Below, one piece after another: positions 9,727-52,400 of a DNA stretch of 64,000 nucleotides. Under the pieces are notes generated by a model. The model made no database searches, was not told the origin of the DNA, and was given only the letters and a program-made list of their open reading frames with translations. The translations under genes were made by a program, and so were the position numbers. Source of the DNA: Carex sylvatica (lineage: Eukaryota > Streptophyta > Magnoliopsida > Poales > Cyperaceae). The stretch lies in contig CAXKVR010000188.1 of the NCBI GenBank assembly GCA_964058845.1, positions 186,001-250,000 on the forward strand. Direction: 5' to 3'. Each line of letters begins with the position of its first letter. Within the stretch, counting starts at the first letter, position 1.

Positions 9727-9731
9727 CAGCA

Positions 9732-12044
9732 TGTCACACCCCGGAACCAGGGGGCGCGACAGTTACGCCGTGAATATATATTTTCTATATACTCACGAGG
9801 CAAGAACGATGAGATGATTCATATTCATCCCAATTTTATCGGATAATTTAAATCTTTCAGACAAGCAGTTAATGAAAATCAGATAATTAAAACACATCCT
9901 ACTTACAACACCTCCTACTTACAACACCTCCTACTTAACGAATTAAACATTTACACTACATAATTAAAATAAGTTTTACAAAGGTCTGGTTCAAAGGTTA
10001 TACACAACAAAATATGATCTGAGTACTTAACTAGTACAAAACGATCATTAATTAAGGCATATCTATACCTCTCCTTTCTTATCCTCGCCGCACGATCTCG
10101 AAATCCTATTCCTTCTTTCCTGAAAAACCCACGAGGGGGAAGAGGGGTGAGAAACTTATTCGCAGTTTCTCAGTGCAGAATTTAAATAGGGCTACTGGAT
10201 TTGTAAGAAATCCAAAATCAGAATTAAATCAATTCATTAGTATATTAATCAGTTAAATCATGAAATGCAATTACTTTAAAAGGGAATTCAAGTGAACTTC
10301 TACTATTATCACATTCGGAGAAAAATCAAAACGGAATTATTCAGGATGTTTGGACCTAAATGCAAACTCTCTAAGTCAGGTTGGAAAGATAGAAATCAGT
10401 TATCTATCTTTGTCGGCTTAACCGTTCTATTGGTTCTGGTTTATAATTAAACATGCATATCAATCAGAATTTCACGGATAGCAATAAAGTAACTCGATCA
10501 GAAACAAAGATTATCAATACAGTAACAGTTTCACATCAATCACTATACCGCAGTTCAGTATTCCAACAATCACAATAATATATGTAATAACAGTATCCCC
10601 TACCCAACCGGTACTGGGTTCAGTGGGGTCATTCCCCAAATGCGCATATGGTTCCTGAGGCAAAGTCTAGCGTCGACTCTAGACTTTGCAATAACTATGA
10701 TATAATATAACAATATCAATTCAGTACTGTGGTTTCATTCCATTATCAGAATCAAAGGAACAGTAAAATCGATAAAACCATACCAATATGCTAGATCATC
10801 CTAAATATAGCAATTCCGATATATCATTTACTTAACTATGCAATAATGCTATGATGCATGCAATTAGAAATTCAACATGCCATTATACGTAATTATTTAA
10901 TTCTTAAAAAATAAATCCCAAAACAGATCCCGTGAACCCCCGCACCTGATCACGTAAGATGCGTAGAGAATCAGCTATCACTAGATTCCGAACTTCCGAC
11001 GATTTCGCTGAATCGTACTCGATAGGGTCTATGCCTATGTTAATAAAGCATAGATGAATTAATAAAATAAATTCCTATAAACTAACTAATCAGAATCAAA
11101 TCGATTATCGAGGTATAACGTTTCAGATCAAATTTGAATTCGAATCTCATCAAAAATATAACAATATCAATTGAATTAGGGTTTCCAAAAGAAAAGAAAG
11201 ACAAATCAGATCAATTATCACAAATTAACAACTAATCGAGCTAGAACTCGATTACTGAAACCCTAATTCGAATTTCAACCGAAATCACGACAAATCGAAT
11301 AATTTAGGATTTTCAAGGAATTGCAAAAGAGATGTATATACCAATTTGAAGCTTTAGAATCGATCAAGGATCGTCAATTCAGCTCGAATCTCAATTTTCC
11401 GGTCAGTTCGATCAGATTCCGCGCTCAATTTCTCTCTCTCTCTCTCTTTCTCTTTTTCCTTTCGGCTAACCTAACTCTCTCTTTTAATTCCCGTAAAATG
11501 AGAAGAAGAAGGAGGATTTTGATTTATAATTGAAATTTTGCAAATAAACCCCTCAAAAATAACAAAATTACATTTCAGTGCGGATCATTCATCCGCACTG
11601 CGGATCCTCTCCATCCGCACTGCGGTCTCTCCATCCGCACTGCGGATCATCCAGCCGCATTCACTGCGCAGAAGAAAAAGTCCGAGCCTAGTGCGGACGC
11701 ACTGAGGCCAGTGCGGATGCTCCCATCCGCATTCAGTACTTAGCGAAATTTTCAGAAGAGTACAGAACTCACCCGCAGTGCGTGTGCCCATCCGCACCAC
11801 CATCCGCACCCAGAGATTTTTCAGCCGTTTATTAAGGAACTTGTCCCAGTGCGGGTGAAGCCACCCGCAGTGCGGGTCATCCATCCGCACTGGACCATTT
11901 TTCTATATTATAATTCAATTTTCGACGCCTTAACTCAATCAGTTAGTATAAAAATATTTCCAAGCATTAGACCTTTAACTTTTAAAACTATATTTAATTT
12001 AATCTTTTGAAATCTTATTATTTTAAAAGTTCCACTACGTTACA
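9732..12044 (-). repeat. Gypsy 3' LTR
   Basis: 2313 bp. On the minus strand it begins TGTAACGTAG and ends GGGGTGTGACA, typical of Tekay/Del LTRs. It includes a TC-rich tract (about 11411-11432) and a CpG-rich array of GTGCGG motifs (11578-11897). Confidence 0.95.
11578..11897 (-). repeat. GTGCGG motif array in the gypsy U3 (left LTR)
   Basis: About 15 copies of (A/C)GTGCGG or its complement CCGCAC lie in 320 bp, many paired as inverted repeats such as CCATCCGCACTGCGG and AGTGCGGACGCACT. On the transcribed strand the array lies upstream of a TATA-like TATAAAT (about 11522-11528). The same array recurs at 18652-18971, and related arrays occur in two other LTR families in this window. Confidence 0.85.
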
Positions 12045-12087: not shown

Positions 12088-15000
12088 CTACGTACCTGAA
12101 CTGTCGAATAACTCAGGATATTGCTCGCGAATTTTCGTTTCGAGTTCCCATGTTGCCTCTTTTTCCGAGTGTCTTCCCCATTGTACTAAAACAAGTCTAA
12201 TCGTTCGATTTCTTAACCTTTGCTCTTTTCTATCAAGTATTCGCATTGGTTCTTCTTTATAGGCCAAATTCTCATTAAGGTATAAGTCAGAATGATCGAT
12301 GCAGTGAGAAGGATCTCGTACATATTTTCGGAGTTGTGACACATGAAACACCGGGTGTACCCGGTCCAAGGCTGGAGGTAATGCAAGCTCGTAAGCTACA
12401 AGTCCTACTCGGTTCAGAATCTGAAAGGGACCGATATACCGTGGACTTAGCTTACCCGATACTCCAAACCGATGTACTCCTCTAACCGGAGATACTCGGA
12501 GCCACACATGATCACCTTCTTGAAACTCTAAAGGTCTTCGATGTACATCAGCATATCTCTTTTGTCGATCTTGAGCTGATTTGAGTCGGCTCAAGATAAC
12601 CTGTGTCTTTTCTGCCGCTTCTTGTATCAATTCTGGTCCTGTGGACGGATGAGTACCCGCCGGACCCCACCACAACGGTGTACGACAAATCTCTCCAGTA
12701 AGCGCTTCTAATGGTGGCATCCCGATACTTGAGTGATAACTGTTGTTGTAGGCAAATTCAACCAAATGCAAATGGTCGAGCCAAGACCCTCGAAAGCTCA
12801 AAGCACACGCTCGAAGCATGTCTTCCAATGTCTGGATTGTTCTTTCTGACTGTCCATCAGTCTGCGGATGATGTGCGGTGCTGAACCTCAGCTTCGTACC
12901 CATATTCTCTTGGAAACTTTTCCAAAAATGCGAAGTGAACCTGGTATCTCGATCAGATATAATTTCTCTTGGACATCCATGATATTTAACGAAAAATTTC
13001 AGAAACAAGTTGGCTAACGTTCGACCCGATGTATCAGGTCCGAGTGGAATAAAATGTGCCACCTTCGTCAATGTATCCACAATAACCCATATGGTATCGT
13101 GTCGACCCACTGTCCTCGGAAAACCAGATACGAAATCCATTGCAATAACTTCAAACTTACCTCTCTTCTTATTCAGCGGTTGAAGTAACCCAGCTGCCTT
13201 TCGTCGATCAGCCTTCACTTGCTGACAGACTTGACATTTCTCAACGTACCTTGTCACATCCCTTTTCATGTTCGGCCACCAGAAATATCGCTTCAGAGTT
13301 TGATACATTTTAACTTCGCCAGGATGGATCGTGTATCCTGAATCATGTGCTTCGGATAGAACTAGGGTCTTCAAATCTGAATCTTCAGGAATGCATATGC
13401 GGTTGCCAAACCGCAAGATACCCTCGTCATCAAGTCTAAATGGAGTGTCTCGGTCCGATTCTACATGTTCTCGAAATTTCTGACATTTCTGATCTTCGTG
13501 CTGCGCTACCCGTATACGGTCATGTAACTCCGGTCTCACCTCAATAGCAGCAGAAATAATGGACATACCAGCCGATTTATTCATACCCGCTTCTTCCTCG
13601 AGTAAGCGAGTTGCAACTGACTTTGCCAATTCGTGCGATGCTCCAACATGTAAATTCATCCTTCTCATTTCTTCAATCAACTGCACTTCACTTGAAATCA
13701 CGCTTGCCAGGTTAACCTGATTCTTCCTACTCAACGCATCTGCTACCGCATTAGCTTTGCCCGCATGATACTGAATATCGAGATCGTAATCCTTCATTAA
13801 CTCCAGCCACCTTCGTTGTCTCAAGTTCAGTTCCTTCTGAGTAAAGACATACTTTAAGCTTTTATGATCCGTGAAAATCTGGCACTTCACACCATACAAG
13901 TAATGCCGCCAAATTTTGAGCGCAAAGATCACCGCTGCTAGCTCCAAGTCATGAGTCGGATAGTTCTGTTCATGTGGCCGTAACTGTCGAGAAGCGTAGG
14001 CAATAACTTGCTCACCTTGCATCAAAACGCAACCCAAACCCGTACGGGATGCATCTGTAAACACCGTGTAGTCCTTTCCAGTTATTGGCATTGTAAGAAT
14101 CGGAGCTGACACTAGCCGACTCTTTAACTCCTCAAAACTTCTTTCTTGTTTTTCACCCCAATCGAACTTAACACCTTTATGTAGCAACTCCGTAAGAGGG
14201 CGGGCTAATTGTGAGAATCCAGCTACAAACCTTCGATAGTACCCCGCTAATCCGAGAAAACTACGAATCTCTGTAACAGTTGTTGGTCTTTTCCATTCAG
14301 TTACCGCTCGAATCTTCTCAGGATCTACCGCCAAGCCTTCACCCGAAACTATATGGCCCAAAAATGCCACCTTGTCCATCCAGAATTCGCACTTTGAAAG
14401 TTTGGCATAAAGCCGATGATCTCGTAGTCTTTGTAACACCACTTTAAGATGTGCCGCATGCTCCTCATATGAACGCGAATAGATCAATATATCGTCGATG
14501 AAGACCACCACACTTGAATCCAACAAATCTCTAAACACACGCTGCATAAGATCCATAAAAGCTGCCGGTGCATTGGTCAATCCGAATGGCATGACTAGGT
14601 ATTCATAGTGCCCGTACCTAGTACGGAAAGCCGTCTTCTCCACGTCACTTGGATATATACGCAACTGGTGATAACCCGTTCTTAAATCGATCTTGGAATA
14701 GACCGACGATCCTTGTAGCTGGTCAAAAAGATCATCAATCCTAGGCAATGGATACTTGTTCTTCACGGTCACCTTATTCAACTCCCGATAATCTATGCAC
14801 AACCGCAGAGTTCCATCCTTCTTTCTTACAAACAACACTGGTGCGCCCCATGGAGAAGTACTTGGTCGAATAAAGCCTTTCTCCAACATTTCTTCTAATT
14901 GCACCTTCAATTCTTTTAGCTCAGCCGGAGCCATCCGATAAGGAGCCTTCGAAATCGGAATTGTGCCAGGTATCAAATTAATGTTGAACTCAATTTCTCG

Positions 15001-16671
15001 CTCCGGGGGTAATCCTGAAATCTCATCAGGAAAGACATCAACGTATTCCGAAACAATCGGAATGTTAGATATTTCTGGAATTTCAGTAGCAGTACTCATA
15101 ACCCTCACTAAATATGCTGTACACCCCGACTCAATTAAGTGCCTTGTCTCTATTGCTGAAATATACGGTACCACCTCTTTTAATCCTCTACACTTTAATG
15201 CACATGTAGCACCACTTGACAATGCGAACTGAACGGTACGGCTCAAACAATCAATCGTAGCTAGGTGTTGAGTTAACCAATCCAAACCCAACAATGCATC
15301 ATACTCAGAAATGTCCATGACCAACATTTCGGCTAGAAAATCCCTTCCATCTACTCTCACTTTCAGGTTTCGGCATGTCCTCGCAATTTGGGTAGTTGAA
15401 CCGAGAGGGGTATGAACATCCAATACTCTCCCACTCGACTCCGTTAACCATCCACACTTCTCCACTAACGTACTAGATATGATCGAATTGCTACAACCCG
15501 TATCAATCAACACATATGCAAGATGTCCCGAAATAGAAATAGTACCTGCTAGCAAATCAGTCTGAGTAGAAATAGGAATCAACTCGTCTCCTGCATTCGG
15601 TAGCTCTATTGCCTCTACCGCGTGAACACTGGCTCGTCCTCCTGCCCGGCCTTCCCTCAACTGTGGTGTAGGGCCTCGACCTCGTAGCGAAGGTATGCCT
15701 CCACGTCCTCGCCCCTGTGGACCTCTATAACCACCACTGCCACTGCTCCCGGGTGTACTCGAAAAATTATTTGGGCAATCCTTGATCCAATGATTCTTGC
15801 TGCCACAGCGGAGACAAGTTTGGTTGAGGCGACGACACTCAAATTCGGTATGTGGCTTCATGCAAATACGGCACCAAGGTCCCGTAGCTCCCGGGGTAAA
15901 CTGAGGTACCGCTATCTGTCCCGTAGGGTATCTAGGGGCTTGAGGTCTAACCCCCGATCCACTCGCTTGCTTTCTTTGATCAAATTTAGGCCTAACATTT
16001 CTGGAGAGGGTTTGTTGCGCACTTCTCTTGAGATATACCTCTGTCTGCTCCGCACATCTCATAAGAGCTGGAACCCCTGCAGCTGTGGAATGATGTATGG
16101 CTAGTGCAATATTCGGGTCCAACCCGTCCAGATACTGCCTCCGGTATCTATCAAGATCCCTTTTCACATCTGGAGCATAGCGGGATAGGTCAAAGAACAA
16201 ACGGTTGTACTCCTCTACCGACCTTTCATTCTGTCTTAAGTTCAGGAATTGGCTTCTCAAAGCCTCCCGATGTAAATCACTCAAGAACTGCTCCCCAAAC
16301 TTCTGTTCAAACCATTCCCAGGTAATCTCTCCTTCGCCCCCTTCAAACTCCATTTTAACTCCCTCCCACCAATGCCTACCAGACTTTTCAAGCAATTGTA
16401 CGGCCAACTCCACTTTGTTCACCTCTGGCACTCGGCATAGGGTGAACTTTGCTTTCAGACTCACCATCCATTCTTCCGCAGCAGGATATCCCCCCGACCC
16501 ATCAAACCGAGGGGGTGTCAAACGCATAAATGCTTCATATAATTGTCGAAATTCCTCCCCATTTGCTCCAGCCACAGGAGCTGGTCCGCGTTCCAGATTT
16601 TCCGCTCTACGACCTCTTTCATAGGCTGCAATTAACATTTCTCCGAGATCTCTCTCCATTTGACTATTCAA
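12088..16671 (-). CDS. Gypsy gag-pol polyprotein with C-terminal chromodomain
   Basis: A single 1527-aa open frame. In order: retrotransposon Gag (about residues 70-165); CCHC knuckle [14 protein letters not shown] (about 286-299); aspartic protease [12 protein letters not shown] (about 388); reverse transcriptase with [11 protein letters not shown] and catalytic FIDDILIYS (about 724); RNase H starting [10 protein letters not shown] (about 871); integrase zinc finger from HPGEVK (about 1116) with CQVCQQVK, then a core beginning MDFVSGFPR and an [13 protein letters not shown] motif; and a C-terminal chromodomain ([20 protein letters not shown]). Chromodomain integrases of this type usually direct insertion toward heterochromatin. 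No stop or frameshift is present, unlike the other elements here. Confidence 0.97.
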
Positions 16672-16783
16672 TAATCAATAAGTTAATATTTCAATTCACG
16701 CAGTTTAACGTTACCAATCTAACTCTAGACTTACCCCACTCGTTTATCCTATCATGTCTGGTTAGGGTTTGAAAACAAACCTT

Positions 16784-16805: not shown

Positions 16806-19118
16806 TGTCACACCCCGGAACCAGGGGGCGCGACAGTTACGCCGTGAATATATATTTTCTATATACTCACGAGGCAAGAACGATGAGATGATTCATATTC
16901 ATCCCAATTTTATCGGATAATTTAAATCTTTCAGACAAGCAGTTAATGAAAATCAGATAATTAAAACACATCCTACTTACAACACCTCCTACTTACAACA
17001 CCTCCTACTTAACGAATTAAACATTTACACTACATAATTAAAATAAGTTTTACAAAGGTCTGGTTCAAAGGTTATACACAACAAAATATGATCTGAGTAC
17101 TTAACTAGTACAAAACGATCATTAATTAAGGCATATCTATACCTCTCCTTTCTTATCCTCGCCGCACGATCTCGAAATCCTATTCCTTCTTTCCTGAAAA
17201 ACCCACGAGGGGGAAGAGGGGTGAGAAACTTATTCGCAGTTTCTCAGTGCAGAATTTAAATAGGGCTACTGGATTTGTAAGAAATCCAAAATCAGAATTA
17301 AATCAATTCATTAGTATATTAATCAGTTAAATCATGAAATGCAATTACTTTAAAAGGGAATTCAAGTGAACTTCTACTATTATCACATTCGGAGAAAAAT
17401 CAAAACGGAATTATTCAGGATGTTTGGACCTAAATGCAAACTCTCTAAGTCAGGTTGGAAAGATAGAAATCAGTTATCTATCTTTGTCGGCTTAACCGTT
17501 CTATTGGTTCTGGTTTATAATTAAACATGCATATCAATCAGAATTTCACGGATAGCAATAAAGTAACTCGATCAGAAACAAAGATTATCAATACAGTAAC
17601 AGTTTCACATCAATCACTATACCGCAGTTCAGTATTCCAACAATCACAATAATATATGTAATAACAGTATCCCCTACCCAACCGGTACTGGGTTCAGTGG
17701 GGTCATTCCCCAAATGCGCATATGGTTCCTGAGGCAAAGTCTAGCGTCGACTCTAGACTTTGCAATAACTATGATATAATATAACAATATCAATTCAGTA
17801 CTGTGGTTTCATTCCATTATCAGAATCAAAGGAACAGTAAAATCGATAAAACCATACCAATATGCTAGATCATCCTAAATATAGCAATTCCGATATATCA
17901 TTTACTTAACTATGCAATAATGCTATGATGCATGCAATTAGAAATTCAACATGCCATTATACGTAATTATTTAATTCTTAAAAAATAAATCCCAAAACAG
18001 ATCCCGTGAACCCCCGCACCTGATCACGTAAGATGCGTAGAGAATCAGCTATCACTAGATTCCGAACTTCCGACGATTTCGCTGAATCGTACTCGATAGG
18101 GTCTATGCCTATGTTAATAAAGCATAGATGAATTAATAAAATAAATTCCTATAAACTAACTAATCAGAATCAAATCGATTATCGAGGTATAACGTTTCAG
18201 ATCAAATTTGAATTCGAATCTCATCAAAAATATAACAATATCAATTGAATTAGGGTTTCCAAAAGAAAAGAAAGACAAATCAGATCAATTATCACAAATT
18301 AACAACTAATCGAGCTAGAACTCGATTACTGAAACCCTAATTCGAATTTCAACCGAAATCACGACAAATCGAATAATTTAGGATTTTCAAGGAATTGCAA
18401 AAGAGATGTATATACCAATTTGAAGCTTTAGAATCGATCAAGGATCGTCAATTCAGCTCGAATCTCAATTTTCCGGTCAGTTCGATCAGATTCCGCGCTC
18501 AATTTCTCTCTCTCTCTCTCTTTCTCTTTTTCCTTTCGGCTAACCTAACTCTCTCTTTTAATTCCCGTAAAATGAGAAGAAGAAGGAGGATTTTGATTTA
18601 TAATTGAAATTTTGCAAATAAACCCCTCAAAAATAACAAAATTACATTTCAGTGCGGATCATTCATCCGCACTGCGGATCCTCTCCATCCGCACTGCGGT
18701 CTCTCCATCCGCACTGCGGATCATCCAGCCGCATTCACTGCGCAGAAGAAAAAGTCCGAGCCTAGTGCGGACGCACTGAGGCCAGTGCGGATGCTCCCAT
18801 CCGCATTCAGTACTTAGCGAAATTTTCAGAAGAGTACAGAACTCACCCGCAGTGCGTGTGCCCATCCGCACCACCATCCGCACCCAGAGATTTTTCAGCC
18901 GTTTATTAAGGAACTTGTCCCAGTGCGGGTGAAGCCACCCGCAGTGCGGGTCATCCATCCGCACTGGACCATTTTTCTATATTATAATTCAATTTTCGAC
19001 GCCTTAACTCAATCAGTTAGTATAAAAATATTTCCAAGCATTAGACCTTTAACTTTTAAAACTATATTTAATTTAATCTTTTGAAATCTTATTATTTTAA
19101 AAGTTCCACTACGTTACA
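16806..19118 (-). repeat. Gypsy 5' LTR
   Basis: 2313-bp partner of 9732-12044 with no mismatch noticed by eye. It holds the second copy of the GTGCGG array (18652-18971). It would drive the element's transcript leftward. Confidence 0.95.
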
Positions 19119-19123
19119 CAGCA

Positions 19124-19835: not shown

Positions 19836-20195
19836 GAATAAAATATAATTTTGATTTCCGAACTCAGATTTCAAAGACGAAGTTGTACATATATATATAT
19901 AGAGAGAGATGCCGATTTTTTTATTAATAGAAAATAAATTAATAAAATATCGAAATAGGATATAAGATTTGAGTTTTGTCAAAAAATAAGTAGAATGGGA
20001 TCTGTTATGCCGTCCCAACGGACGGTACATTTTTTTCCGTCTGGTTTATCCTAATTAACTCCTGAACAAATTAGCAGTAAAAAAAAAAAAAAAAAATCCA
20101 GACAGTGAGAGAAGACCCGTCCCGAATTTAGTGAAAAAAAAAAAAAAATCCCGGACAGAAAAGTAAGACCGTCCGATTTCCTTTCTGTTTTGTTT

Positions 20196-20500
20196 TTATA
20201 TTATAATATTATTATATTATATTATAATATATTACATCATATTACATTACATTACATTATATTATATTATATTATATTACATTACATTATATTATATTGT
20301 ATTCTATTATATTATATTGTATTCTATTATATTATATTGTATTGTATTACATTACATTACATTATATTATATTGTATTATATTATATTGTATTGTATTGT
20401 ATTATATTGTATTATATTATATTATATTACATTATATTATATTATGATTTTATATTATATTATTATATTAATATACTTATATATATTATATTATGAGTAG
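20196..20500. repeat. TTATA pentanucleotide array, left arm
   Basis: Interspersed TTATA, TTACA and TTGTA five-base units over about 300 bp. The open frames across it rich in Tyr, Ile and Leu are low-complexity artefacts. Its inverted counterpart is at 21435-21690. Confidence 0.9.
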
Positions 20501-21434
20501 AAATAGAATTTTCTTAAGCTCACCAAAGTGTTTGGTAAGCTTAACTCTAAAACTCATTAAATTGGTTTCAAATAACGAATTCGAACCGTTAGAACTCGTC
20601 TATCTTACGAGTGATGCGTCTACATGTAAAAATTTTAAACATTTGAATTAATTTAGTATAAAGTCAATCGGTCAAATTAAAAGGTTAATAAATTAATTTT
20701 AGTGCATTCATTTTTTGAACATTTTTTGACCGCTTGACTTTATACTAAATTAATTCGAACGTTTAAAATTTTCACATGTAGATGCACCACTCGTAAGGTA
20801 GGCGGGTTTCAACGATTCGGATTCGTCATTTGAAACCGATTTGATGAATTTTGAAGTTAAGCTTACCAAACACTTTGGTGAGTTTAAGAAAACCCTATTT
20901 CTACTCATAATATAATATATATAAGTATATTAATATAATAATATAATATAAAAAATAAAATAAAATATAATATAATATAATATATATAAAATCATAATAT
21001 AATATAATATAATAATATTATAATTTTATAATTTTATAATTTTATTCGGTTGTAAGCTCACTAAAGTGTTTGGTGAGCTTAACTCCAAAATTTATCAAAT
21101 CAGTTTCAAATGACGAATCCGAACTGTTAAAATCCGCCTACCTTACAAGTGATGCATCTACATGTGAAAATTTTAAATGTTCGAATTAATTTAGTATAAA
21201 GTGAAGCGGTCAAAAAAAGTTCAAAAAATGAATGCACTAAAATTAATTTATTAACCTTTTAACCGATTGACTTTATACTAAATTAATTCAAATGTTTAAA
21301 ATTTTCACATGTAGACGCATCACTCGTAAGATAGACGAGTTCTAACAGTTCGAATTCGTCATTTGAAACCAATTTAATGAGTTTTGGAGTTAAGTTTACC
21401 AAACACTTTGGTGAGCTTAAGAAAATCCTATTTC

Positions 21435-21690
21435 TACTCATAATATAATATATATATAAGTATATTAATATAATAATATAATATAAAATCATAATATAAT
21501 ATAATGTAATATAATGTAATATAATATAATATAATATAATATAATACAATACAATGTAATATAATATAATACAATGTAATATAATGTAATATAATGTAAT
21601 GTAATGTAATATAATACAATACAATATAATATAATATAATATAATATAATACAATACAATATAATGTAATATAATGTAATATTATATTAT
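21435..21690. repeat. TATAA pentanucleotide array, right arm
   Basis: Reverse complement of the left array, with TATAA, TGTAA and TACAA units. A shorter related tract lies near the palindrome centre (about 20905-21010). Confidence 0.9.
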
Positions 21691-21985
21691 AAAAAACAAA
21701 ACAAAAAAGAAATCGGACGGATCTTACTTCTCCGTCTGGGATTTTTTTTTTCTGCTGAATCCGGGATGGATCTTCCCTCACCGTTCGGATTTTCATTTTT
21801 TTTTAACGCTAATTTGATCGGGGGTTAATTAGGATAAACCGGACAGAAAAAAATATACCGTCCGTTGAGACGGCATAACAGATCCCGTTCTACTTATTTT
21901 TCGACAAAACTGAAATCCTTTACCCTATTTTGATATTTTATTAATTTATTTTCTATTAATAAAAAAATTGGGAGAGAGTTGGGCT

Positions 21986-26715: not shown

Positions 26716-26720
26716 AATTA

Positions 26721-27829
26721 TGTTGGATCTTAATCCAACATTGAGCATATATGTGATATAATTATGAATTGTTTACTGTCATATATGATTGTCACAATTA
26801 AAGTGTCTAATATGGAATTAAGATATTACACAATCTATGTATTCAATAGGATGTGGTCCATAAATGTGTAGAACAATTTAGACAAATATCAAATCATTGA
26901 TGGACTGATTCTGAGATTTACAATTAAGAAAAACTACAATTTTGACCCTGAGTACGAACGCACTGAGCCCAATGCAGACGCACTCAGTACTTAGCCCAAT
27001 TCTGGGAACTTCAGGAAAAATGTCCGAGCGTAATGCGGATGCACTGAGATCCAGTGCGGACGCACTCAGAACTTAGGTGACTTTTTGAAGTTCAAATGCT
27101 TAGTGCAAACGCACTAGACCCTAGTGCAGATGCACTCAGCACTTAGCAAAAATTTTGAAGTTCAATGCAAAAAAATCCGAGCGTAATGCAGACGCACTGA
27201 GCTCCAGTGCGGATGTACTCAGGAATTGAGAAATTTCGGGGCTGAAATTTAAGACGGTTATTTGGACATGTCTTAACCAGTGCGGATGCACTGAGCCCAT
27301 TGCGGGTTGGTGCACCCGCACTCGTGTTGTCAGATGTGTAAACCTATATATAGATGGGTCCCCAAGGCACAAGATAACTAACTTAACTCAGAATTCTGAA
27401 AGAGGTTATTCTTAGACAGAATTTTGAGAGCCTTCTTCCGTCTTCCACCATTAAAGAATTGAGAGGAGAAATCCATTAGAATTTTGGAGATGATTTCTGA
27501 AGGGCGTTCTTGTTGCTTTGGAAGACCTAATCTAAGATCCAACCAAAAAGGCGTGAGGGAAATCTCAGCATCAAGAGTCTTGTCTCGCGCTCACGGAGAC
27601 GGTTGCTGCTCTAACTTAGGATTTGATATTCCATGGCAAACGATATGGAATCAGGTATTGTATTCCGCACTAAATATTATATTTTGGATCTCTTTGGCAT
27701 AGTACGGTCTTAGGTTAAGGTGGAGATTGTTTATTCTTTCCTGGGGTGTAAGTGTTTGACCCCTAAATGAGATGTAATTATTTGATCTCTACATAAGGCG
27801 TAATTGTTTGGCCTTTATGATTACCAACA
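26721..27829 (+). repeat. Copia 5' LTR with GTGCGG module
   Basis: 1109 bp. U3 includes repeats of AGTGCGGACGCACT type at about 26950-27330, followed by a TATA box CCTATATATAGATGG near 27342-27356. It differs from the 3' LTR by substitutions and indels (1109 against 1072 bp), so the insertion is old. Confidence 0.92.
26950..27330 (+). repeat. GTGCGG/CGCACT module in the copia U3
   Basis: Five blocks pair a GTGCGGAYGCACT-like palindrome with the phrase TCAGYACTTAGC. Some CpGs have decayed to CA or TG (for example AATGCAGACGCACT), as methylation-driven mutation would produce. A related module is at 32952-33285 in the 3' LTR. Confidence 0.85.
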
Positions 27830-32723: not shown

Positions 32724-33795
32724 TGTTGGATCTTAATCCAACGTTGAGCATATATGTAATATAATTATGAATTGTTTACTGTCATATATGATTGTCACAA
32801 TTAAAGTGATATAATATGAAATTAAGATATTAGACAATCTATGTATTCAATAGGATGTGATCCATAAATGTGTAGAACAATTTAGGCAAAGATCAAATTA
32901 TTGATGGACTAATTCTGAGATTTGCAATTAAGAAAAAATGTCATTTTGATCCTGAGTGGGGACGCACTGAGCCTAGTGCGGACACACTCAATACTTAGCC
33001 AAATTCTAGAAAATTCAAGAAAAATGTCCGAGCGTAATACGAACGCACTGAGATCCAGTGCGGACGCACTCGACACTTAGGAGATTTTCTGAAGTTCAAA
33101 TGCTTAGTGCGGATGCACTCAGCACTTAGGTGAATTTCTGCAGTTCAATGTAGAAAAATTCTAGCGTAATGCGGACGCACTGAAGGAATTGAGAAATTTC
33201 GGGGCTGAAATTTAAGACGATTATTTGGTCACGTCTTAACCAGTGCGGATGCACTGAGCCCATTGCGGGTCGGTGCACTCGCACTCGTGCTGTCAGATGT
33301 GTAAACCTATATATAGATGGGTCCTCAAGGCACAACATAACCAACTTAACTCAGAATTCTGAAATAGGTTATTCTTAGACATAATTTTGAGAGCCTTCTT
33401 CCGTCTTCCACCATCAAAGAATTGAGAGAATAAATCCATTAAAATTTTGGAGATGATTTCTGAAGGGCGTTCTTGTTGCTTTGGAAGACATAATCTAAGA
33501 TTCAACCAAAAAGGCGTGAGAAAAATCTCGGCATCAAGAGTCTTGTCTCGCGCTCATGGAGACAGTTGCTGCTCCAACTTAGGATTTGATATTCCATGGC
33601 AAACGACGACATGAAATTAGGTATTGTATTTCGCACTAAAGATTATGTTTTCGATTTATTTGACATAGAACGGTCTTAAGTTAAGGTGGGGATTGTTTCT
33701 CCTTTTCCGGGGTATAAGTGTTTGATCTCTAAATGAGATATAATTATTTGATCTCTAGATAAGACATAATTATTTGACCTTTATGATTCCCAACA
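32724..33795 (+). repeat. Copia 3' LTR
   Basis: 1072-bp partner of 26721-27829 with its own GTGCGG module (32952-33285) and TATA box (about 33306-33320). The target duplication AATTA follows directly. Confidence 0.92.
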
Positions 33796-33800
33796 AATTA

Positions 33801-40009: not shown

Positions 40010-42632
40010 CTATCTAGAAGGGCCCGCACAAGAAAAGGATATGCTCCTAACTGCAACCTTAACTGCACCGACAGTTCCGAATTGCCACATCTCGGGACTA
40101 ATCCCGTTTAATTCTCCTTGGGATGCTTCATCTAATATTGCTCCTATATAGTATGCAATCTGCTCCTAATAAATTTCTTATTAGAGATTTAAAATCTCAG
40201 AATATAAGTTCGATTAAAGTTTGAATCAGTATTAGCTTGAGCTCTAACCTTTCCAGTTGAATTTCGTACAGGTGATATGTGAAATAGATTCCAGAAGGAG
40301 CTTCCATCCTTCCTGAGAGAATAAAATTTTAACAGTAAGACGAAAAATATAAAATGTTTAATATCAAGAAAAATTCAAACAAGGAGATAGGCACCTGTAA
40401 TTCAATAATCGCACTGTACAAGATTTCTCAGCACCAATACTCTTATTAATCTGCTTTAATAAAAAAAAATAGTGTGTAAATTTGAATTGTTTAACAAAAG
40501 AATAGATAAAGAAGTATCCCACATTTCACTCAAGCGAACTCCACCCTAAATATACATCAATCTTTTTCAGTATGCCAAAAGATGCATACTTAAAAGTTAA
40601 AAAAAAAGGGGAAATAACATAGCTTAAACCACTAGGCAAGCCAATGAGATTAGAACCATACTGACAATTAAACCTTTGATTTGTGTGGAATGTACCTGTT
40701 GCAAAGCTTTTGAACAAGTGCCAGGTCCATTTAGAAATTTAGAGTTACGCCCCAAGACTTCACATCTCGAATAGCCTGTGCCGTGGTCAAAAAAATTGAT
40801 AAAACATTGCAACATGAGAAATGGCATATAACTATTATTCCAGAAAAAGAAAGGACACCATTAATATTTCAGGAAACTTCAAAACTTTAAATAATAATAA
40901 CAGGTTGACATCCTCTTTTCCCTTGTTTTAGCTTATGCAAAATTAGAAACAATTAGGTATATCAAGAAAAACAGTTTAGAAGCAAATACACGATCTTCAG
41001 GTAAATCTAAAAACAAACAATAATGGCATATAATAATATACAAACATGTAAAGCATAAAAGATAAGTATAAATTTACCAGTTAAACTCAAAAATGCATCA
41101 CTAGCATAGACAATAGGCATGCCAGGTAAATGTGGGTCAGACCTACAACTCATATAAGTTTTGCCAAATCAGTCCCAATCACAAGAAACACTTTTATTAA
41201 AATAAATTGAACTCAGAAATGAGGTGAATTGGGGCAATTGAGCACTACTTGCGCAATTAAGTCTCAAATTGAAGCATATTTGGAATTGCAATTCAGCAAC
41301 TAAACCAATTTAAAAGAACCAAGTACTTTACTGAGCAATTAAGGATTATTCAAATTGAAGCAGCAATCCGAGGCACAGACCTAAACTTATCCAATACGTC
41401 AAAATGACAACAAAGGTTCCAGTTTGGGTCGTACAAGTAGTGGCAAAAAACTTATTTGTTACAAGCAAATAGAACTTTGAGGGAAAACTCACAATAAAAA
41501 GCTCTTATTAATTCCACCAAGAGAGAGTTTCAAGCACGAGCTAAGGGCAGGGATGGTGCGGGGTCCGCAACATTGCTTGGTACCAACCACCAAACCAGTA
41601 AGCTTACTGTACCGATTAAGAGCCGATATGATATTATTGGCCGCATTTAATGCTGTCTCCTTCTCCCATTCACCAGCTATGCATGATTCACCACCCTCTG
41701 ACACTGTATCAGTCAACTAGCAAGAATGCTTTTTTTACCATCTTGTTTTTTTAGTTCTCCAATCAAACAATACTTTCGAAGAAAAAAAGCTAAATATTTT
41801 ACATCAGGTAGGCCTTTCATCCATCTCAGTTATGATTTTTTTACAAGATTCAATCAAAGTCATTGTATGCCAATTACTAGTTAATGCCTCCAATTGAATC
41901 CGATGAAATGATTTTTAACCATAAGTCCCAAAATTCATATAGAAAACTACAATTGTTTGGATCACAAGTTACAACCAATAAGTATGGTTCCAGTTAATTC
42001 AAAGTATTTCCTATACCAGTCCTGAATTATACATAATCATAATCCAGATATCACAGTTTTTACTTAATTATGCATGACAAACAATTTACTAAAAGAAGAA
42101 CAAACCATAAATGGAACTGACCTTTATTACACACATTATCAAACAGCTTCTGAGCAGGTGCATCACACCCCATTCTCACCTCATCTCTGCAACCCCTCAA
42201 CAAAGCCCTGCTACACGTACCGTGTCGGGTCCCGGGCCGCTTCACAATGGGCACTTGGACCGCAAAGAAGTGCACCACAGTCCCATCCACTTGCTCAAAC
42301 ACCGGGCTCATATGAAACAACACCTGGTGCGGTGTACCATCCTTCCGATAGTTTACCAACATAATCTGGACCGTGGATTGCGTTCTGACAGCCTCGCGGA
42401 TCTGAGAAACGGATCCACGATCCGTTTCAGGGCCTTGAAACAGCCGTGGGTTCTTGCCAAGGATTTCTGACTGAGCATAGCCTGATATGGAGAGAAACGA
42501 TTGGCTAGCAAACACTATCGGGTGACCAGATATTGCAGGGTCCGTTATAAGAAAGCAATCCGATAACTCGTTAAGAGCTTCGAGTACCCAATCAGAGTAG
42601 CGGGAGGTGAGCGATAGCTGGAAACTGTCCAT
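40010..42632 (-). CDS. TLP1: TWIN LOV protein (TLP1/PLP-like), seven exons
   Basis: Two-LOV-domain protein of 378 aa with no other recognised domain. Arabidopsis PLP/TLP1 proteins are reported to interact with other regulators in a blue-light-dependent way. Exons on the minus strand: 42632-42135, 41716-41493, 41142-41078, 40775-40696, 40450-40395, 40312-40249, 40159-40010. All have GT-AG borders and compatible phases. LOV1 (about residues 15-130) reads GKNPRLFQGPETD: the photoactive Cys is Pro62. Lack of Cys in LOV1 agrees with my recollection of the Arabidopsis protein. LOV2 (about 240-350) reads GYSRCEVLGRNSKFLNG: the Cys position is Ser274 (codon TCT, complement of 40741-40743), which is unusual because LOV2 normally keeps NCRFL. 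LNYRKDGSSFWNL and HISPVRNSTGK are intact. Length is close to the family's roughly 400 aa. Confidence 0.92.
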
Positions 42633-43570
42633 TGTCGCAACAGGATGATGCGATGAAGGTGAATAAGGGAGGATAGAAATGAAGTGTGCATGGAGAGAGA
42701 GCTGGAAAGAGGGATTTCTAGGGAGTAAAAGTGGTTGACTAATTGAGTTAGATTTATTATTATTTTATTAAATTGGTGGATATTGGAAAACAACAGAATG
42801 GAATGGAGGTGGAAACTGTGGGAAGGAAAAGGAAGCCAATTGATTGAAGTTGTGTGGCAATTTGGCAGCGAATTAGAGAATGCGACGTCGGCAGAGTTGA
42901 GAGGTAGAGAGAGAGAAGAGGTAAGAGTGGTATTTTGTTTATTTCTTTTGTTTTTTCAATATATTAAGACGAAATAATAGATAGCTATGGGAAACAGACA
43001 AAACAACTGACATTTGATCGAAAACAAAACAGACAACTGACACGACAGAGCTTAGGATTGAACAGTTTTACTGGCTGGAGCTGGAGCATTTGGAGTAAGT
43101 GGACCGTGAATGTACGGTCCTTTCTTTATATAAAAGAATAACCTTCATCCCTCTTCTATATTTTATTTATTTATTAAAATCCTTAGAAACTCACACAATA
43201 CACTCTCACGATTCAAATTTACGTTCTCCGTAAGAGAATGGATGCCTTATCCAACCCATGTTCACCCCTCTTCTATTGATAAAAATAATATATTCATTCT
43301 CATCATTTAATTTATACTTTTGTTTTCAAAATCAAATTAATATATTTCTTGACTTATCAAATTCATCTTAGCAAAACTAAAGTTTCAGAACACTCGATAA
43401 ATTTTGAATGCTCGTGGCAGCACACGATATACTCCGGATGCATTCAAGATGGAGCGCCCATAGGTTGATCAGTTGATGGATTAAGAAATTTCGTGTTTAG
43501 CGATTAAAACAACTGTAAAATAATGCACTAAAATCAAACTGGGTTCTTTTGGATCCATTACTTCTCATCC
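42633..43570. other. Upstream region of the twin-LOV gene
   Basis: Contains the presumed promoter and 5' UTR. A GAGAGAGA-rich stretch is near 42901-42918. No other gene was seen. Confidence 0.5.
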
Positions 43571-44931: not shown

Positions 44932-45496
44932 TTCAAATTTTTTTGAATTCAATTCCCGCCGGTTCAACCGGGCCCGGACCGGTCTAATCAAACCCGACCG
45001 ACCGGACCCACCCGAGTCAACTCAGGCTCAGCCGTTTTTTTTTTTTTTTTTTTTTTTTTTTTGTTTCAAATTTTATTCCCTCCCAATATTTTCTTTAAAT
45101 ACCCCATCTTCCTCACCAAAAATTCACACTCTCATTCTCTCATCTCTCATTCTCTCAATCTCAATTCTCCAATTTAATTATTCACTATTTTTTAATTTAT
45201 TGTTTAAAAAAATATATAATTGTAAATTTAATTCATTACACAAATCCGCAAACGGAATTACAAAGTTCGTCACCTCCCGCAAAATTTTTTCGCGAGATTT
45301 AAAGGTAACATTTATTTCATTTTAGATTAATTTATTTTTGTAGAGTACATTTAGTTTATGCTTGATTTATTGAATATTAAGTAATTAGATTTGTCATTTG
45401 TTAGGTTTGTTAAATTTATTAAGTAATTAGATTTGTTAGATTTATTGAATATGTTAGATTTATTGAATATGTTAGATTTATTTAGTTTATGTTAGA

Positions 45497-47115
45497 TTTG
45501 AATATGTCAAATAATTATATTTGTTTTTAATTTCTGTTTTTGAAATTCTGTTTTTTAATTTCTGTTTTTTAAATTCTGTTTTTTAATTTCTGTTTTTTAA
45601 TTTCTGTTTTTTAATTTCTGTTTTTAAATTTTCTGTTTTTTAAAATAGATTAGTTTTATAGATTTGAATATGTGAAGTGATTATATTTGTTTTGAATAGG
45701 TTAGATTTATTTTTCAAAATTCGAATTTATTTTTAATAGGTCTTTTAAAATAGGTTAGTTTAATTTCTGTTTTTTATTTTCTGTTTTTTTATTTCTGTTT
45801 TTTAATTTTCTGTTTTTTAAAATAGGTTAGTTTTATAGATTTGAATATGTGGAGTGATTATATTTATTTTGAATAGGTTAGATTTATTTTTCATAGATCT
45901 TTTAAAATAGGTTAGTTTAATTTCTGTTTTTTAAATTCTGTTTTTTAATTTCTGTTTTTTAATTTCTGTTTTTAAATTTCTGTTTTTAAATTTTCTGTTT
46001 TTTAAAATAGATTAGTTTTATAGATTTGAATATGTGAAGTGATTATATTTATTTTGAATAGGTTAGATTTATTTTTCATAGATCTTTTAAAATAGGTTAG
46101 TTTAATTTCTGTTTTTTAAATTCTGTTTTTTAATTTCTGTTTTTTAATTTCTGTTTTTAAATTTCTGTTTTTAAATTTTCTGTTTTTTAAAATAGATTAG
46201 TTTTATAGATTTGAATATGTGAAGTGATTATATTTATTTTGAATAGGTTAGATTTATTTTTCATAGATCTTTTAAAATAGGTTAGTTTAATTTCTGTTTT
46301 TTAAATTCTGTTTTTTAATTTCTGTTTTTTAATTTCTGTTTTTAAATTTTCTGTTTTTTAAAATAGATTAGTTTTATAGATTTGAATATGTGGAGTGATT
46401 ATATTTGTTTTGAATAGATTAGATTTATTTTTCAAAATTCGGATTTAATTTTAATAGGTTTTTTAAAATAGGTTAGTTTTATAGATTTGAATATGTGAAG
46501 TGATTATATTTATTTTGAATAGGTTAGATTTATTTTTCATAGATCTTTTAAAATAGGTTAGTTTAATTTCTGTTTTTTAAATTCTGTTTTTTAATTTCTG
46601 TTTTTAAATTTCTGTTTTTAAATTTTCTGTTTTTTAAAATAGATTAGTTTTATAGATTTGAATATGTGGAGTGATTATATTTGTTTTGAATAGATTAGAT
46701 TTATTTTTCAAAATTCGGATTTAATTTTAATAGGTTTTTTAAAATAGGTTAGTTTTATAGATTTGAATATGTGAAGTGATTATATTTATTTTGAATAGGT
46801 TAGATTTATTTTTCATAGATCTTTTAAAATAGGTTAGTTTAATTTCTGTTTTTTAAATTCTGTTTTTTAATTTCTGTTTTTAAATTTCTGTTTTTAAATT
46901 TTCTGTTTTTTAAAATAGATTAGTTTTATAGATTTGAATATGTGGAGTGATTATATTTGTTTTGAATAGATTAGATTTATTTTTCAAAATTCGGATTTAA
47001 TTTTAATAGGTTTTTTAAAATAGGTTAGTTTTATAGATTTGAATATGTGAAGTGATTATATTTATTTTGAATAGGTTAGATTTATTTTTCATAGATCTTT
47101 TAAAAAAGGTTAGTT
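45497..47115. repeat. Higher-order tandem repeat inside the hAT element
   Basis: Ten copies of a GATTTGAATATGTGRAGTGA segment (near 45661, 45839, 46024, 46208, 46380, 46476, 46654, 46759, 46934, 47037) alternate with AATAGGTTAGATTTATTTTT and runs of TTTCTGTTTTTTA. Spacing is about 175-185 bp, with some at about 95-105 bp. It lies between a possible leader splice donor (AAAG|GTAACA at about 45303) and the transposase ATG. Confidence 0.9.
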
Positions 47116-48508
47116 TAATTTCTGTTTTTTAAATTCTGTTTTTTAATTTCTGTTTTTTAATTCTGTTTTTTTATTTCTGTTTTTTATTTCTGTTTTTTTA
47201 TTTCTGTTTTTTTATTTCTGTTTTTTATTTCTGTTTTTTAATTTCTGTTTTTTAATTTCTGTTTTTTATTTTCTGTTTTTTTATTTCTGTTTTTTATTTC
47301 TGTTTTTTAATTTCTGTTTTTTTATTTCTGTTTTTAAATTTCTGTTTTTTATTTTCTGTTTTTTTATTTCTGTTTTTTATTTTCTGTTTTTTTATTTCTG
47401 TTTTTTATTTCTGTTTTTTAATTTCTGTTTTTTATTTTCTGTTTTTTTATTTCTGTTTATTATTTCTGTTTTTTTATTTCTGTTTTTTATTTCTGTTTTT
47501 TAATTTCTGTTTTTTAATTTCTGTTTTTTATTTTCTGTTTTTTTATTTCTGTTTTTTATTTCTGTTTTTTAATTTCTGTTTTTTAATTTCTGTTTTTAAT
47601 TTCTGTTTTTTATTTCTGTTTTTTTATTTCTGTTTTTTTATTTCTGTTTTTTATTTCTGTTTTTTAATTTCTGTTTTTTAATTTCTGTTTTTTATTTTCT
47701 GTTTTTTTATTTCTGTTTTTTATTTCTGTTTTTTAATTTCTGTTTTTTTATTTCTGTTTTTAAATTTCTGTTTTTTATTTTCTGTTTTTTTATTTCTGTT
47801 TTTTATTTTCTGTTTTTTTATTTCTGTTTTTTATTTCTGTTTTTTAATTTCTGTTTTTTATTTTCTGTTTTTTTATTTCTGTTTTTTATTTCTGTTTTTT
47901 TATTTCTGTTTTTTATTTCTGTTTTTTAATTTCTGTTTTTTAATTTCTGTTTTTTATTTTCTGTTTTTTTATTTCTGTTTTTTATTTCTGTTTTTTAATT
48001 TCTGTTTTTTAATTTCTGTTTTTTATTTCTGTTTTTTATTTCTGTTTTTTTATTTCTGTTTTTTTATTTCTGTTTTTTATTTCTGTTTTTTAATTTCTGT
48101 TTTTTAATTTCTGTTTTTTATTTTCTGTTTTTTTATTTCTGTTTTTTATTTCTGTTTTTTAATTTCTGTTTTTTTATTTCTGTTTTTAAATTTCTGTTTT
48201 TTATTTTCTGTTTTTTTATTTCTGTTTTTTATTTTCTGTTTTTTTATTTCTGTTTTTTATTTCTGTTTTTTAATTTCTGTTTTTTATTTTCTGTTTTTTT
48301 ATTTCTGTTTTTTATTTCTGTTTTTTTATTTCTGTTTTTTATTTCTGTTTTTTAATTTCTGTTTTTTAATTTCTGTTTTTTATTTTCTGTTTTTTTATTT
48401 CTGTTTTTTATTTCTGTTTTTTTATTTCTGTTTTTTTATTTCTGTTTTTTTATTTCTGTTTTTTTATTTCTGTTTTTTTATTTCTGTTTTTTATTTCTGT
48501 TTTTTAAT
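47116..48508. repeat. TTTCTGTTTTTTA short tandem array
   Basis: About 1.4 kb of 12-15-base units alternating TTTCTGTTTTTTA, TTTCTGTTTTTTAA and TTTTCTGTTTTTTTA. Larger blocks of roughly 330-430 bp recur within it. Its reverse complement, CAGAAAAAA, dominates the other flank of the transposon (51780-52010). Confidence 0.93.
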
Positions 48509-48614: not shown

Positions 48615-51145
48615 ATGTCATCTCATCGTGGTTCCGTGGAAGAGGACATCGCGAGATTTTCGGCCGATCTTTTTGGCCCGTCAATACCAAATTATCCACA
48701 AAGTTCCTCCCAAATTGCACCACCTAATCATCCACAAAATTTTCCACCAAATTATCAAAGAAGGGACCAAATACTAGATTTGAATTATCAACAACCCTCA
48801 CAAATGAATGCACCGTATTATACTTCAAACGATCCAAATGTATACATTCCACAAGAAACACTTCAACCGACACCACAGTATACATATGGAGGCATTGGCT
48901 CTTCTTCTGTAGCATCCAGTCAGTTCACTGACACTGCTCCTGTAGGAGGTACACCTTCGACAGGTGAACCTGAAATTCAAGAAGAAGTTGTCCCTCCTTC
49001 GACAAGTGATCCGCCGCAAAAACCAGCAGGAAAGAAGACTAAAAGACCTCCCCCCGAATACAATCAACCGTGGGCGAAATTTTACAAAATTACCAGAGGG
49101 AGTAACAATTGTATGGCTTTTGGACAATGTAAGGTAAAAACTTGCCGAAAAACTTTTGAGTATAAACAAAGTGGTGGTTTGAGTACTTTTAAGAGACATG
49201 CCGAGTCGCACGAAAAAAAGGGTGAGTTTCCATCTGAAAATTCTGAACCGGGACAAATCCAAACCCTTATAAACGCGGATGGTACCAGAACAAATCCAAA
49301 ATTCGATGAATCAAAAATGCTTAGTGAATTGGCCCGGTACATTACCCATAAAGAACAACCAATAAGTATGGGTGGTTGCACGAGTTTTGCCCGGTTATGC
49401 ATTCGGGGGTTAGGTCAACCAATGTACAAGAGGATCCATCATAGAAAGATGGTTGGTGAAATAAAAAAACAGTTTACCTCCACCAAAAATGACCTTAAAG
49501 CTCTATTTGCATACCAAAACAATAAGGTGTCAATTACCTCCGACATATGGACTGCCGGTAAACATGGCCTTGGGTACTCTTGTATTACCGGCCATTGGAT
49601 CGATGATCACTGGGTATTACAAAAAAGAATATTAAGTTTTTGAGTTTTGGATTCCCCCCACACTGCAACTGTAATTTTCAAATCCATTATTGAGGTTTTA
49701 GAAGAGTATAACCTTAAGAGGAATTTTGGTAACAAGGTTTTTTCTATATCCTTCGATAATGCTAGCAACAACATTGCTTCCATTGAGATTTTTAAACGGT
49801 CACTAAACCCGATAATGAATGGTGAAATGTTTCACCAAAAGTGTGCTTGCCACGTTCTTAACCTTGTCGTGAAGGCGGGTCTAAAAACAGAAGCCGTAAA
49901 ACTATTGATAATTAAATTTAAGAATGCCCTCAACCACATTGTTTCAAACCAAGAAAGAAAACAACAGTTTGCTGCATTATGCGTCACCTATAGATTGAGT
50001 AAGTTGAAGGTACCTTGGGATATAGATACCCGTTGGAACTCAACATATAGGTTGTTGAACCGATGCCTTCCCTACAAAGCTGTCATAGGTGAGTTTTTGA
50101 GAAGCTCCAACCCCGAGGCATTGCAATTCGAACTCATTGACGAAGAATGGGATAAACTGCAAAGGCTTAGCAAATTCCTTGGAATCTTTTTTACTGCAAC
50201 AGTTCAACTATCATGCTCGTACTCACCGACGTCGTTTGAGTTGCTGAGACATCTCTATGAAATCTCCAAGGTGTATTGCGAATTAGAACAATCTGAAATC
50301 TATGATGCATCTCTCACGCCAATTGTAGATGCCATGAAACAAAAATTCCTAAAATATTGGGAAGATGTACCTCTCCTAGCCATTATCGCAAACTGCCTCC
50401 ACCCGGCATACAAGAAGTTTTACACGATCAAAGTAGTTGAGAGGTACAAACAGAATTTAAATTTAGACTCAACCGGAGTGGAGGCTGACGTGAATTCGAA
50501 GTTCGATGAGATGTTTAACATATACCACTCAAGAATGAGTGACAACCGAAACCCAGCTTCGTCCCGTCCGGCCCCTAGGTATGAATATAAATATACATGT
50601 GTTTTCAATCTTTATTATTTATAATATCTACATTATTTGTCCACTAATTTTTTTAATTGTTAAATAGTTCCACTACTAGGAGCACTAGCAGTGGTGGATT
50701 ATTAGCAGATTTTCAGTCGGAGAGCCAACCGCACACATCCGCAAACGAGTTATTGGGGTATATATCGATGATCAATGAAAGTGAAGAAGGACTTGACGTG
50801 ATGGCATGGTGGAGGAGGCATCAAAGTTCCTTGCCAACGCTGGCTATGATGGCCCGCGATGTATTTGCTGTGCCCGTATCAACCGTCCCTTCTGAAAGTT
50901 GTTTCAGTTCGGCGAACAGGATCCTCTCCGATAAACGAAGTAAGTTGGGTGCACATGTTTTTGAGAGACTTGTGTGCTTGAAGGATTGGATTGCTGCTGA
51001 AGAGCGTACGCAACATGTGCCTCAACAACCATCATCATCTGAAGCCGACACTGAAGAAAGCGGTACCGAGGCGCGACGTGAGGCTAATTCTGATTCTGAC
51101 GGTGCCGAAGAGAGCGAACAATGGTATATGAATCCAAACTACTAA
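48615..51145 (+). pseudogene. hAT transposase (BED finger, RNase-H-like core, dimerisation domain), single nonsense codon
   Basis: Two exons, 48615-50578 and 50668-51145, joined by an 89-bp GT-AG intron, give 813 codons. A BED-type zinc finger lies around CKVKTCRKTFEYKQSGG...H (49130-49215). The catalytic region includes SITSDIWTAGKHGLGYS (first Asp, about 49530) and SISFDNASNN (second Asp, about 49745). The C-terminal hAT dimerisation domain has AWWRRHQSSLPTLAMMARD and VSTVPSESCFSSANRIL. A lone in-frame TGA at 49641-49643 follows RILSF, just before the conserved VLDSPHT, consistent with a CGA-to-TGA transition. Otherwise the frame is open. A RICESLEEPER-like relative by domain order. Not functional as read unless the stop is bypassed. 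Confidence 0.9.
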
Positions 51146-51770: not shown

Positions 51771-51779
51771 AATACCGTA

Positions 51780-52010
51780 AAAAAAAAGAAAAAAAAAACA
51801 GAAAAAAAACAGAAAAAAAAAACAGAAAAAAAAACAGAAAAAAAAAACAGAAAAAAAAAACAGAAAAAAAAACCAGAAAAAAAAAACAGAAAAAAAAACA
51901 GAAAACTAAACATAAAAAAAAAAGAAAAAAAACCGAAAAAAAAAGGACAAAAAAAACCGAAAAAAAAACAGACAAAAAACCCAGAGAAAAACAGAAAAAA
52001 AAAAAACAGG

Positions 52011-52042
<32 letters not shown>

Positions 52043-52262: not shown

Positions 52263-52400
52263 AGCACAGCACTAGTGGGTGCCATGGTGACCACAAGCCC
52301 ATAGAGAGAGAGAGAGAGAGAAAGATCCGGATCTCTTTGCAACCATTCATTTTATGGCCACGTATGTGGTCATTGTTGTTTGCAATTTGTAGAGTAGCAG

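Follow-up and report, generated by a model that had tools for sequence, protein, structure and literature searches.

A palindromic half-site module common to Ty3/gypsy and Ty1/copia LTRs of Carex sylvatica, a candidate transferable cis-regulatory cassette

Known palindrome arrays and the LTRs of the window

The closest known system to the module described here is the RM boxes of Sireviruses. According to the sections of Bousios et al. (2010; PMC2829016) that deal with them, RM boxes are palindromic, with a CGG-CCG core in all elements but one, and occur in at least eight copies per element in the upper half of the LTR, in CpG islands shortly upstream of TATA; their words vary by element, additional copies lie outside the LTR, and they were reported as Sirevirus specific and absent from classic copia elements. 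A maize palindrome, CACCGGACNNNGTCCGGTG, is common to Copia elements and Helitrons, and in the portions of PMC10760457 on this motif, cis-regulatory and small-RNA roles are proposed for it, while maize Ty3 elements display no obvious structure peak. The VANDAL/VANC motifs, as presented in the corresponding parts of PMC5735166, are short repeated words that differ in related families, arise by repeat formation, and have a specific protein as their reader; among them, YAGTATTAY, the motif of VANC21, is nonpalindromic and lies mainly in noncoding DNA in one orientation. Anti-silencing targets of the VANC type are recognized by a transposon-encoded protein that takes away methylation.

The window analyzed here is a 64,000-nucleotide stretch of Carex sylvatica DNA. 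In it, LTRs of three elements carry in U3 a module (flavor 1) built from palindromic AGTGCG/CGCACT half-sites and preceded by a nonpalindromic lead phrase that is common to them. The Tekay-type Ty3/gypsy element is on the minus strand, with its 5′ LTR at 16806 to 19118, a TGGTATCAGAGC primer-binding site (PBS) directly inside, and its 3′ LTR, an exact duplicate of 2,313 bp, at 9732 to 12044; its target site duplication (TSD) is CAGCA (9727 to 9731 and 19119 to 19123). The gag-pol ORF of this element (12088 to 16674, minus strand; 1,528 aa) scored above the Pfam cut-offs for RVT_1, RNase H, RVP_2, and Integrase_H2C2, and Chromo reached 23.0 bits, under its cut-off of 25.1. The Ty1/copia element, on the plus strand, consists of a 5′ LTR (26721 to 27829), an internal region of 4.9 kb, and a 3′ LTR (32724 to 33795) with 87% identity to the 5′ LTR, and its TSD is AATTA (26716 to 26720 and 33796 to 33800). 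The Athila-type solo LTR (59844 to 61713, plus strand; TSD CCAAC at 59839 to 59843 and 61714 to 61718) is 92.5% identical over 1,852 bp to the LTR of L070, an Athila-type element that encodes gag, protease, reverse transcriptase (RT), RNase H, and integrase domains. A domain search assigned the pol of the Tekay-type and Athila-type elements to the Ty3/gypsy type; the lineage names themselves are presumptive, taken from domains, PBS, and lineage features.

The module occupies 11578 to 11897 (LTR positions 148 to 467) and 18652 to 18971 in the Tekay 3′ and 5′ LTRs (minus strand), 26950 to 27330 and 32952 to 33285 in the copia 5′ and 3′ LTRs (plus strand), and 59998 to 60345 in the Athila LTR (plus strand). 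An earlier sequence-only reading had given these spans as the LTRs; they are the modules inside the longer LTRs located above. Counted by eye, there are about ten 14-bp palindromes, part of them imperfect, in the copia 5′ LTR and about eight in the Athila LTR. A TATA-like box lies past each module end: TTATAA at 11524 to 11529 in the Tekay 3′ LTR, with the 5′ LTR copy at 18598 to 18603 (both minus strand); CTATAT at 27344 to 27349 in copia (plus strand); and CTATATAAG at 60501 to 60509 in Athila (plus strand). The claim that the module sits directly upstream of such a box is correct as to order in all three elements, and the gap, in element sense, is 14 bp in copia, 49 bp in Tekay, and as much as 156 bp in Athila. 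Since the Tekay element is on the minus strand, its module is inverted relative to its own transcription, unlike the copia and Athila modules. The module was also said to be CpG rich, which applies to copia (CpG observed/expected, 0.87 to 1.11 versus 0.49 to 0.70 in the remaining LTR) and Athila (0.88 versus 0.47) but not to Tekay (0.93 versus 1.16).

The compact unit AGTGCGGAYGCACT had 10 exact matches in the window, 10 of 10 within the five LTR copies (two Tekay, two copia, and the Athila solo LTR). The units are thus present in all three LTRs, as had been claimed, but the other phrases are not: the lead phrase GTCYGAGCSYAGTGC is exact in Tekay and Athila only, its copia version being GTCCGAGCGTAATGC; the linker is exact in copia only and is 1 nt shorter in Tekay and 1 nt longer in Athila; and of the five LTR copies, only the copia 3′ LTR lacks an exact CAGYACTTRGC. 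That more than a short motif is shared was confirmed by same-strand local module scores of 59 (Tekay-copia), 62 (Tekay-Athila), and 46 (copia-Athila), compared to means of 17.6 to 18.1 and maxima of 27 to 29 for 300 randomized sequences per comparison. Opposite-strand scores (48, 43, and 34) were lower than these and also above their randomized maxima (26, 23, and 31), because the module words are palindromic. The LTR flanks of the three elements proved unrelated except for one match at E ≤ 0.01, 20 bp between copia and Athila (E = 0.003). Moreover, the Tekay-Athila module alignment extends into nonpalindromic sequence on either side of the units, which indicates homology, more than one binding site occurring twice. 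Nested copies of one element, also raised by the sequence-only reading, are ruled out by a separate TSD for each element and the unrelated flanks.

The module resembles RM boxes, as characterized in the RM-box sections of PMC2829016, in its dyad palindromes with a CGG-CCG core (AGTGCGG...CCGCACT and the flavor 2 word TACGGNCCGTA; in the compact unit AGTGCGGAYGCACT, CGG is confined to one side), in a copy number of at least eight by the above counts by eye for copia and Athila, and in the short distance to a TATA-like box. As for the CpG islands of RM boxes, the observed/expected ratio is higher in the module for copia and Athila and lower for Tekay. Unlike RM boxes, the carriers here are Tekay-type and Athila-type Ty3/gypsy elements, an unclassified family D, and a copia element without the two Sirevirus features checked; furthermore, one word is common to unrelated families of one genome, apparently exchanged, and in frame in pol. 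We interpret the module as working like an RM array whose carriers are not Sireviruses. The copia element, which is placed outside the Sireviruses provisionally, has the 4.9-kb internal region noted above and was found to have no AGGGGGAG octamer, a Sirevirus feature.

Like maize CACCGGACNNNGTCCGGTG in the relevant portions of PMC10760457, the module places one palindrome across two transposable element superfamilies; unlike it, the cassette here has nonpalindromic phrases and includes Ty3 lineages. It has family-specific repeated words in common with the VANDAL/VANC motifs, for which a protein reader is reported in the corresponding parts of PMC5735166 and is only predicted here; unlike the VANC21 motif, the words are palindromic, stand in both orientations, and occur also in coding sequence. 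The sequence-only reading knew of no named description. Palindromic CGG-CCG motifs upstream of TATA do have one, the RM boxes (PMC2829016); a palindrome cassette common to copia and gypsy LTRs was not described in any of the openly licensed papers listed by the searches, judged by title and the start of the abstract.

Genome-wide occurrence and exchange between lineages

The genome-wide motif search proposed in the sequence-only reading was carried out on the 64-Mb, 950-contig assembly. With one mismatch allowed, the core AGTGCGGAYGCACT had 1,679 matches (807 plus 872) versus 3 (1 plus 2) for its reversed control, and the lead phrase AAAGTCYGAGCNYARTGC had 575 versus 0; the wide palindrome had 2,055 versus 18. 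In line with the expected link to LTRs, 27 of 27 inspected core clusters were assigned to LTR families, 13 of them to Athila, 7 to Tekay, 6 to family D, and 1 to copia, in a sample hand-picked from the first matches listed on contigs C1 to C9 only. This sample comprised 7 places of L001 to L008 (two being one place) and 20 of L071 to L090; it omits places from the LTR search, what were probably the second LTRs of elements already represented, and all matches past C9. Family D, which is unclassified, is taken as an LTR family on its repeat pairs alone, 12.6 kb apart on C456 and 12.76 kb apart on C295; that it is a diverged Tekay was rejected, as a sensitive flank comparison gave no match of at least 60 bp. 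At the level of sequence comparison, these data show that one homologous cassette, including the nonpalindromic lead phrase, occurs in Tekay, Athila, copia, and family D.

Six Athila LTRs match the reverse strand of the Tekay LTR inside the module, over 278 bp in L076 (84%) and L084 (82%), 270 bp in L082 (83%), 199 bp in L081 (81%) and L088 (82%), and 195 bp in L005 (77%). These stretches are inverted relative to Athila transcription and lack the Tekay LTR ends, and they are therefore not nested Tekay LTRs. L005 and L088 match positions 1 to 159 of the Athila LTR (80 to 82%) and then its sequence from 602 on (76 to 80%); remnants of 160 to 601 in them amount to 33 bp at 88%, several pieces of 22 to 27 bp, and, in L005, also 99 bp at 69%. 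In L076, L084, and L082, the Athila alignment continues through the module at 69 to 75%, and L081, L076, and L084 retain Athila pieces of 94 to 175 bp at 67 to 72%. As judged from these alignments, just two of the six, L005 and L088, have the Athila module cleanly replaced, though L005 retains its 99-bp match. Exchange of the cassette between the Tekay and Athila lineages is supported by these LTRs. The sequence-only reading had proposed exchange between superfamilies; the support from L005 and L088 is for exchange between Tekay and Athila, both of the Ty3/gypsy type, and for copia, the comparisons show shared descent of the lead phrase, not a dated swap.

Two further places in the assembly contain the lead phrase in unusual settings. 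At C62:12724-32645 (G000), it occurs nine times at 2,108-bp spacing and then once more 3,040 bp on, this array being a tandem repeat of a unit that contains the lead phrase. L104 (C308:20400-21000) is a fragment in which the lead phrase and units are fused directly to Athila coding sequence.

Half-site spacing and units outside U3

In the sets examined, distances between convergent half-sites were mostly 7, 16 to 17, 27 to 28, or 37 to 38 bp; those between divergent half-sites were 13 to 14 bp, then 33 to 35 and 42 to 58 bp with more scatter; and same-direction half-sites were mostly 20 to 21 or 30 to 31 bp apart. After spacers at least 70% alike were dropped, the best periods of the three orientation classes were 10.3 bp (n = 65), 10.3 bp (n = 96), and 10.0 bp (n = 117). 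The near-identical Tekay loci L039 to L068 were mostly omitted from the phasing sets (3 were kept), as were some duplicates. Thirteen of 14 family-by-class phasing tests gave a P value of <0.01 against a jitter of ±5 bp, with the copies counted being related by descent and so not independent trials; phasing of Athila internal divergent pairs was not significant against the same jitter (P = 0.11), and the number of Tekay convergent pairs did not suffice for a test. Duplication of a 21-bp unit predicts convergent distances of 7, 28, and 49 bp, not 17 and 38 bp, so 10-bp steps are needed. For AGTGCGN{5,35}CGCACT, 50 distinct places among the matches listed (C1 to C3) had gaps of 11 (33 places), 32 (14 places), and 10, 12, and 22 (1 place each), and all 50 flavor 2 pairs among the matches listed had a gap of 9 or 10, with 3 to 12 permitted. 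This ladder of about 10 bp speaks more for a predicted DNA-binding protein that acts as a dimer than for hairpins in RNA or repeats that are neutral. The sections of PMC2829016 on RM boxes make no mention of helical phasing.

The module had been described as a U3 feature, which holds for the three window elements; in an Athila family, it is also found within coding sequence and in the 3′ UTR. L070 has flavor 1 units in its 3′ UTR and also, in frame between protease and RT, units encoding CGSLTRTETQCARTQPPD-type repeats. The protease-RT linker of L070 has 178 residues; it was measurable in 78 of 120 relatives, 72 of which have 93 to 143 residues and the remaining six 149, 149, 172, 177, 214, and 300. 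Among 20 further coding copies, eight (L091, L102, and L105 to L110) were open through the module by eye, and others had lost the frame. In the part of their alignment that was seen, the coding copies vary by whole units, including an exact 22-nt absence in L099 to L101 beside a direct repeat, CCAGTGCG, and the same part yielded no clean empty site for insertion of a unit, only unit differences within existing arrays. Palindromic units within ORFs are found in Rickettsia palindromic elements and nematomorph mitochondrial genes; unlike the units here, those are bacterial or mitochondrial and are not phased arrays in LTR promoters. Residues 522 to 600 of the L070 protein, the peptide encoded by the module, were compared to other plants by a search that requires shared 5-residue words, and none of the 13 candidates reached E ≤ 10. 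A Rhynchospora breviuscula protein (P0014) has a protease-RT linker with CAVAPDPCAVAQ-type repeats able to encode TGTGCGGTCGCACA-like palindromes, an observation at the protein level only.

The architecture recurs with a different word, TACGGNCCGTA (flavor 2), in a second element, which is seen at the end of L001 and in L112, and the flavor 2 double palindrome occurs at 401 places genome-wide versus 0 for the control. This element has a gag domain (E = 6e-22) and shares 33% identity with the L070 protein over 243 residues (E = 9e-31); by these matches, it is Athila-like. Of its flavor 2 pairs, those at C1:52416 and 52517 are probably in U3, that at C1:53353 is ahead of the PBS, that at C1:53926 is in the leader, and those at C1:55434 and 55536 are in frame past gag, a place in the polyprotein that differs from that in L070.

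Explanations for the module and other features of the window

Phasing in two flavors, the place before a TATA-like box, and the occurrence of half-sites in either orientation suggest that the module offers sites to a predicted dimeric DNA-binding protein. On balance, we favor, with some reservation, the explanation that the module is a transferable cis-regulatory cassette, most likely bound by such a protein upstream of the LTR TATA box. The inverted-repeat half-site array AGTGCGG/CCGCACT would be bound by a dimer or a dimer of dimers, the phasing would reflect binding along one helical face, and the sites would be maintained by selection, whether for transcription or for evasion of silencing. 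The cassette would be exchanged at the DNA level by ectopic conversion or repair, since the inverted orientation is ill suited to simple switching between two sense RNAs. A promoter role would fit the position and helical phasing of the module; on the other hand, such a role is not obvious for sites in the coding sequence and 3′ UTR, and the Athila copies there may serve as internal sites or have arisen incidentally through the same copying.

Those coding copies are best accounted for by a selfish short palindromic repeat that would proliferate within retrotransposons by slippage, template switching, or repair and have no regulatory role. Palindromic elements in Rickettsia genes and the GC clusters of yeast mitochondria are parallels. 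Three observations are in keeping with such a repeat: Athila has units in the 3′ UTR and, in frame, in the linker between protease and RT; the 20 coding copies show unit-level differences (the 22-nt absence included); and flavor 2 is scattered over a second Athila-like element, where a different linker contains it in frame. Nonetheless, 10-bp-step phasing is unexpected for neutral hairpins, the modules recur in U3 ahead of TATA, and no empty-site insertion was found, and we regard this account as unlikely. Somewhat less likely again, in our assessment, is a function of RNA structure, with hairpins of the genomic RNA that would act in packaging, dimerization, or stability or, as has been argued for maize Sirevirus palindromes, would feed small-RNA silencing. 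The RNA of the Tekay module is strongly structured and folds 5.7 standard deviations below shuffles (z = −5.7), which also counts against the regulatory cassette; one flavor 2 double palindrome folds into a single hairpin (z = −5.9); and small RNAs are drawn to maize Sirevirus palindromes in the relevant portions of PMC10760457. Against RNA structure, however, the spacing follows the turns of the DNA helix, a single compact palindrome has room for a loop of just 1 to 2 nt, and another flavor 2 unit and a copia piece gave z values of only −2.2 and −1.7; in addition, the central two bases of flavor 2 are Watson-Crick complementary in 2 of 50 pairs among the matches listed, with 8 more wobble capable on one strand.

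The sequence-only reading had also entertained convergent capture of a host array, in which unrelated LTRs each gained sites for the same host transcription factor. A host activator would indeed select one half-site in any LTR, but the nonpalindromic sequence shared around the units and the 195- to 278-bp Tekay-like stretches within Athila LTRs require common descent or transfer; these alignments largely refute convergence for the Tekay-Athila pair, and we hold it to be improbable in general. The period of 10.0 to 10.3 bp would also suit nucleosome positioning or curved DNA, with GC-rich words every 10 bp setting a nucleosome beside the promoter; this would need a composition, not an exact 6- to 7-bp word in two orientations, and is highly improbable.

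If the transferable cassette is indeed regulatory, a broader and distinctly tentative proposal is that several plant LTR lineages carry exchangeable recognition codes in the form of helically phased palindrome arrays, each word with its own predicted protein, an activator or anti-silencing factor. Lineages, even superfamilies, would adopt the codes of others by cassette swapping, and some Athila elements would distribute the code over their whole length, with in-frame copies even inside gag-pol. Were this so, retrotransposon promoters would evolve partly by lineages trading regulatory cassettes, which could explain unrelated families being switched on together, and palindromic RM boxes would no longer be a Sirevirus-only property. 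The strict helical spacing makes the predicted binding protein a definite target that should be retrievable with a short DNA probe.

Several other features of the window were observed. Positions 42060 to 42764 are part of a PAS/LOV gene, in a region 96% identical to Carex rostrata and 85% identical to Rhynchospora breviuscula. Ten-bp repeats in two inverted blocks lie at 20160 to 21720 within a larger fold-back structure, and long 14-bp and 13-bp tandem arrays (45350 to 48000 and 51717 to 52400) flank long ORFs at 48615 to 51145. GC-rich inverted repeats of the CCGGGTACC type are present at about 52050 to 52140.
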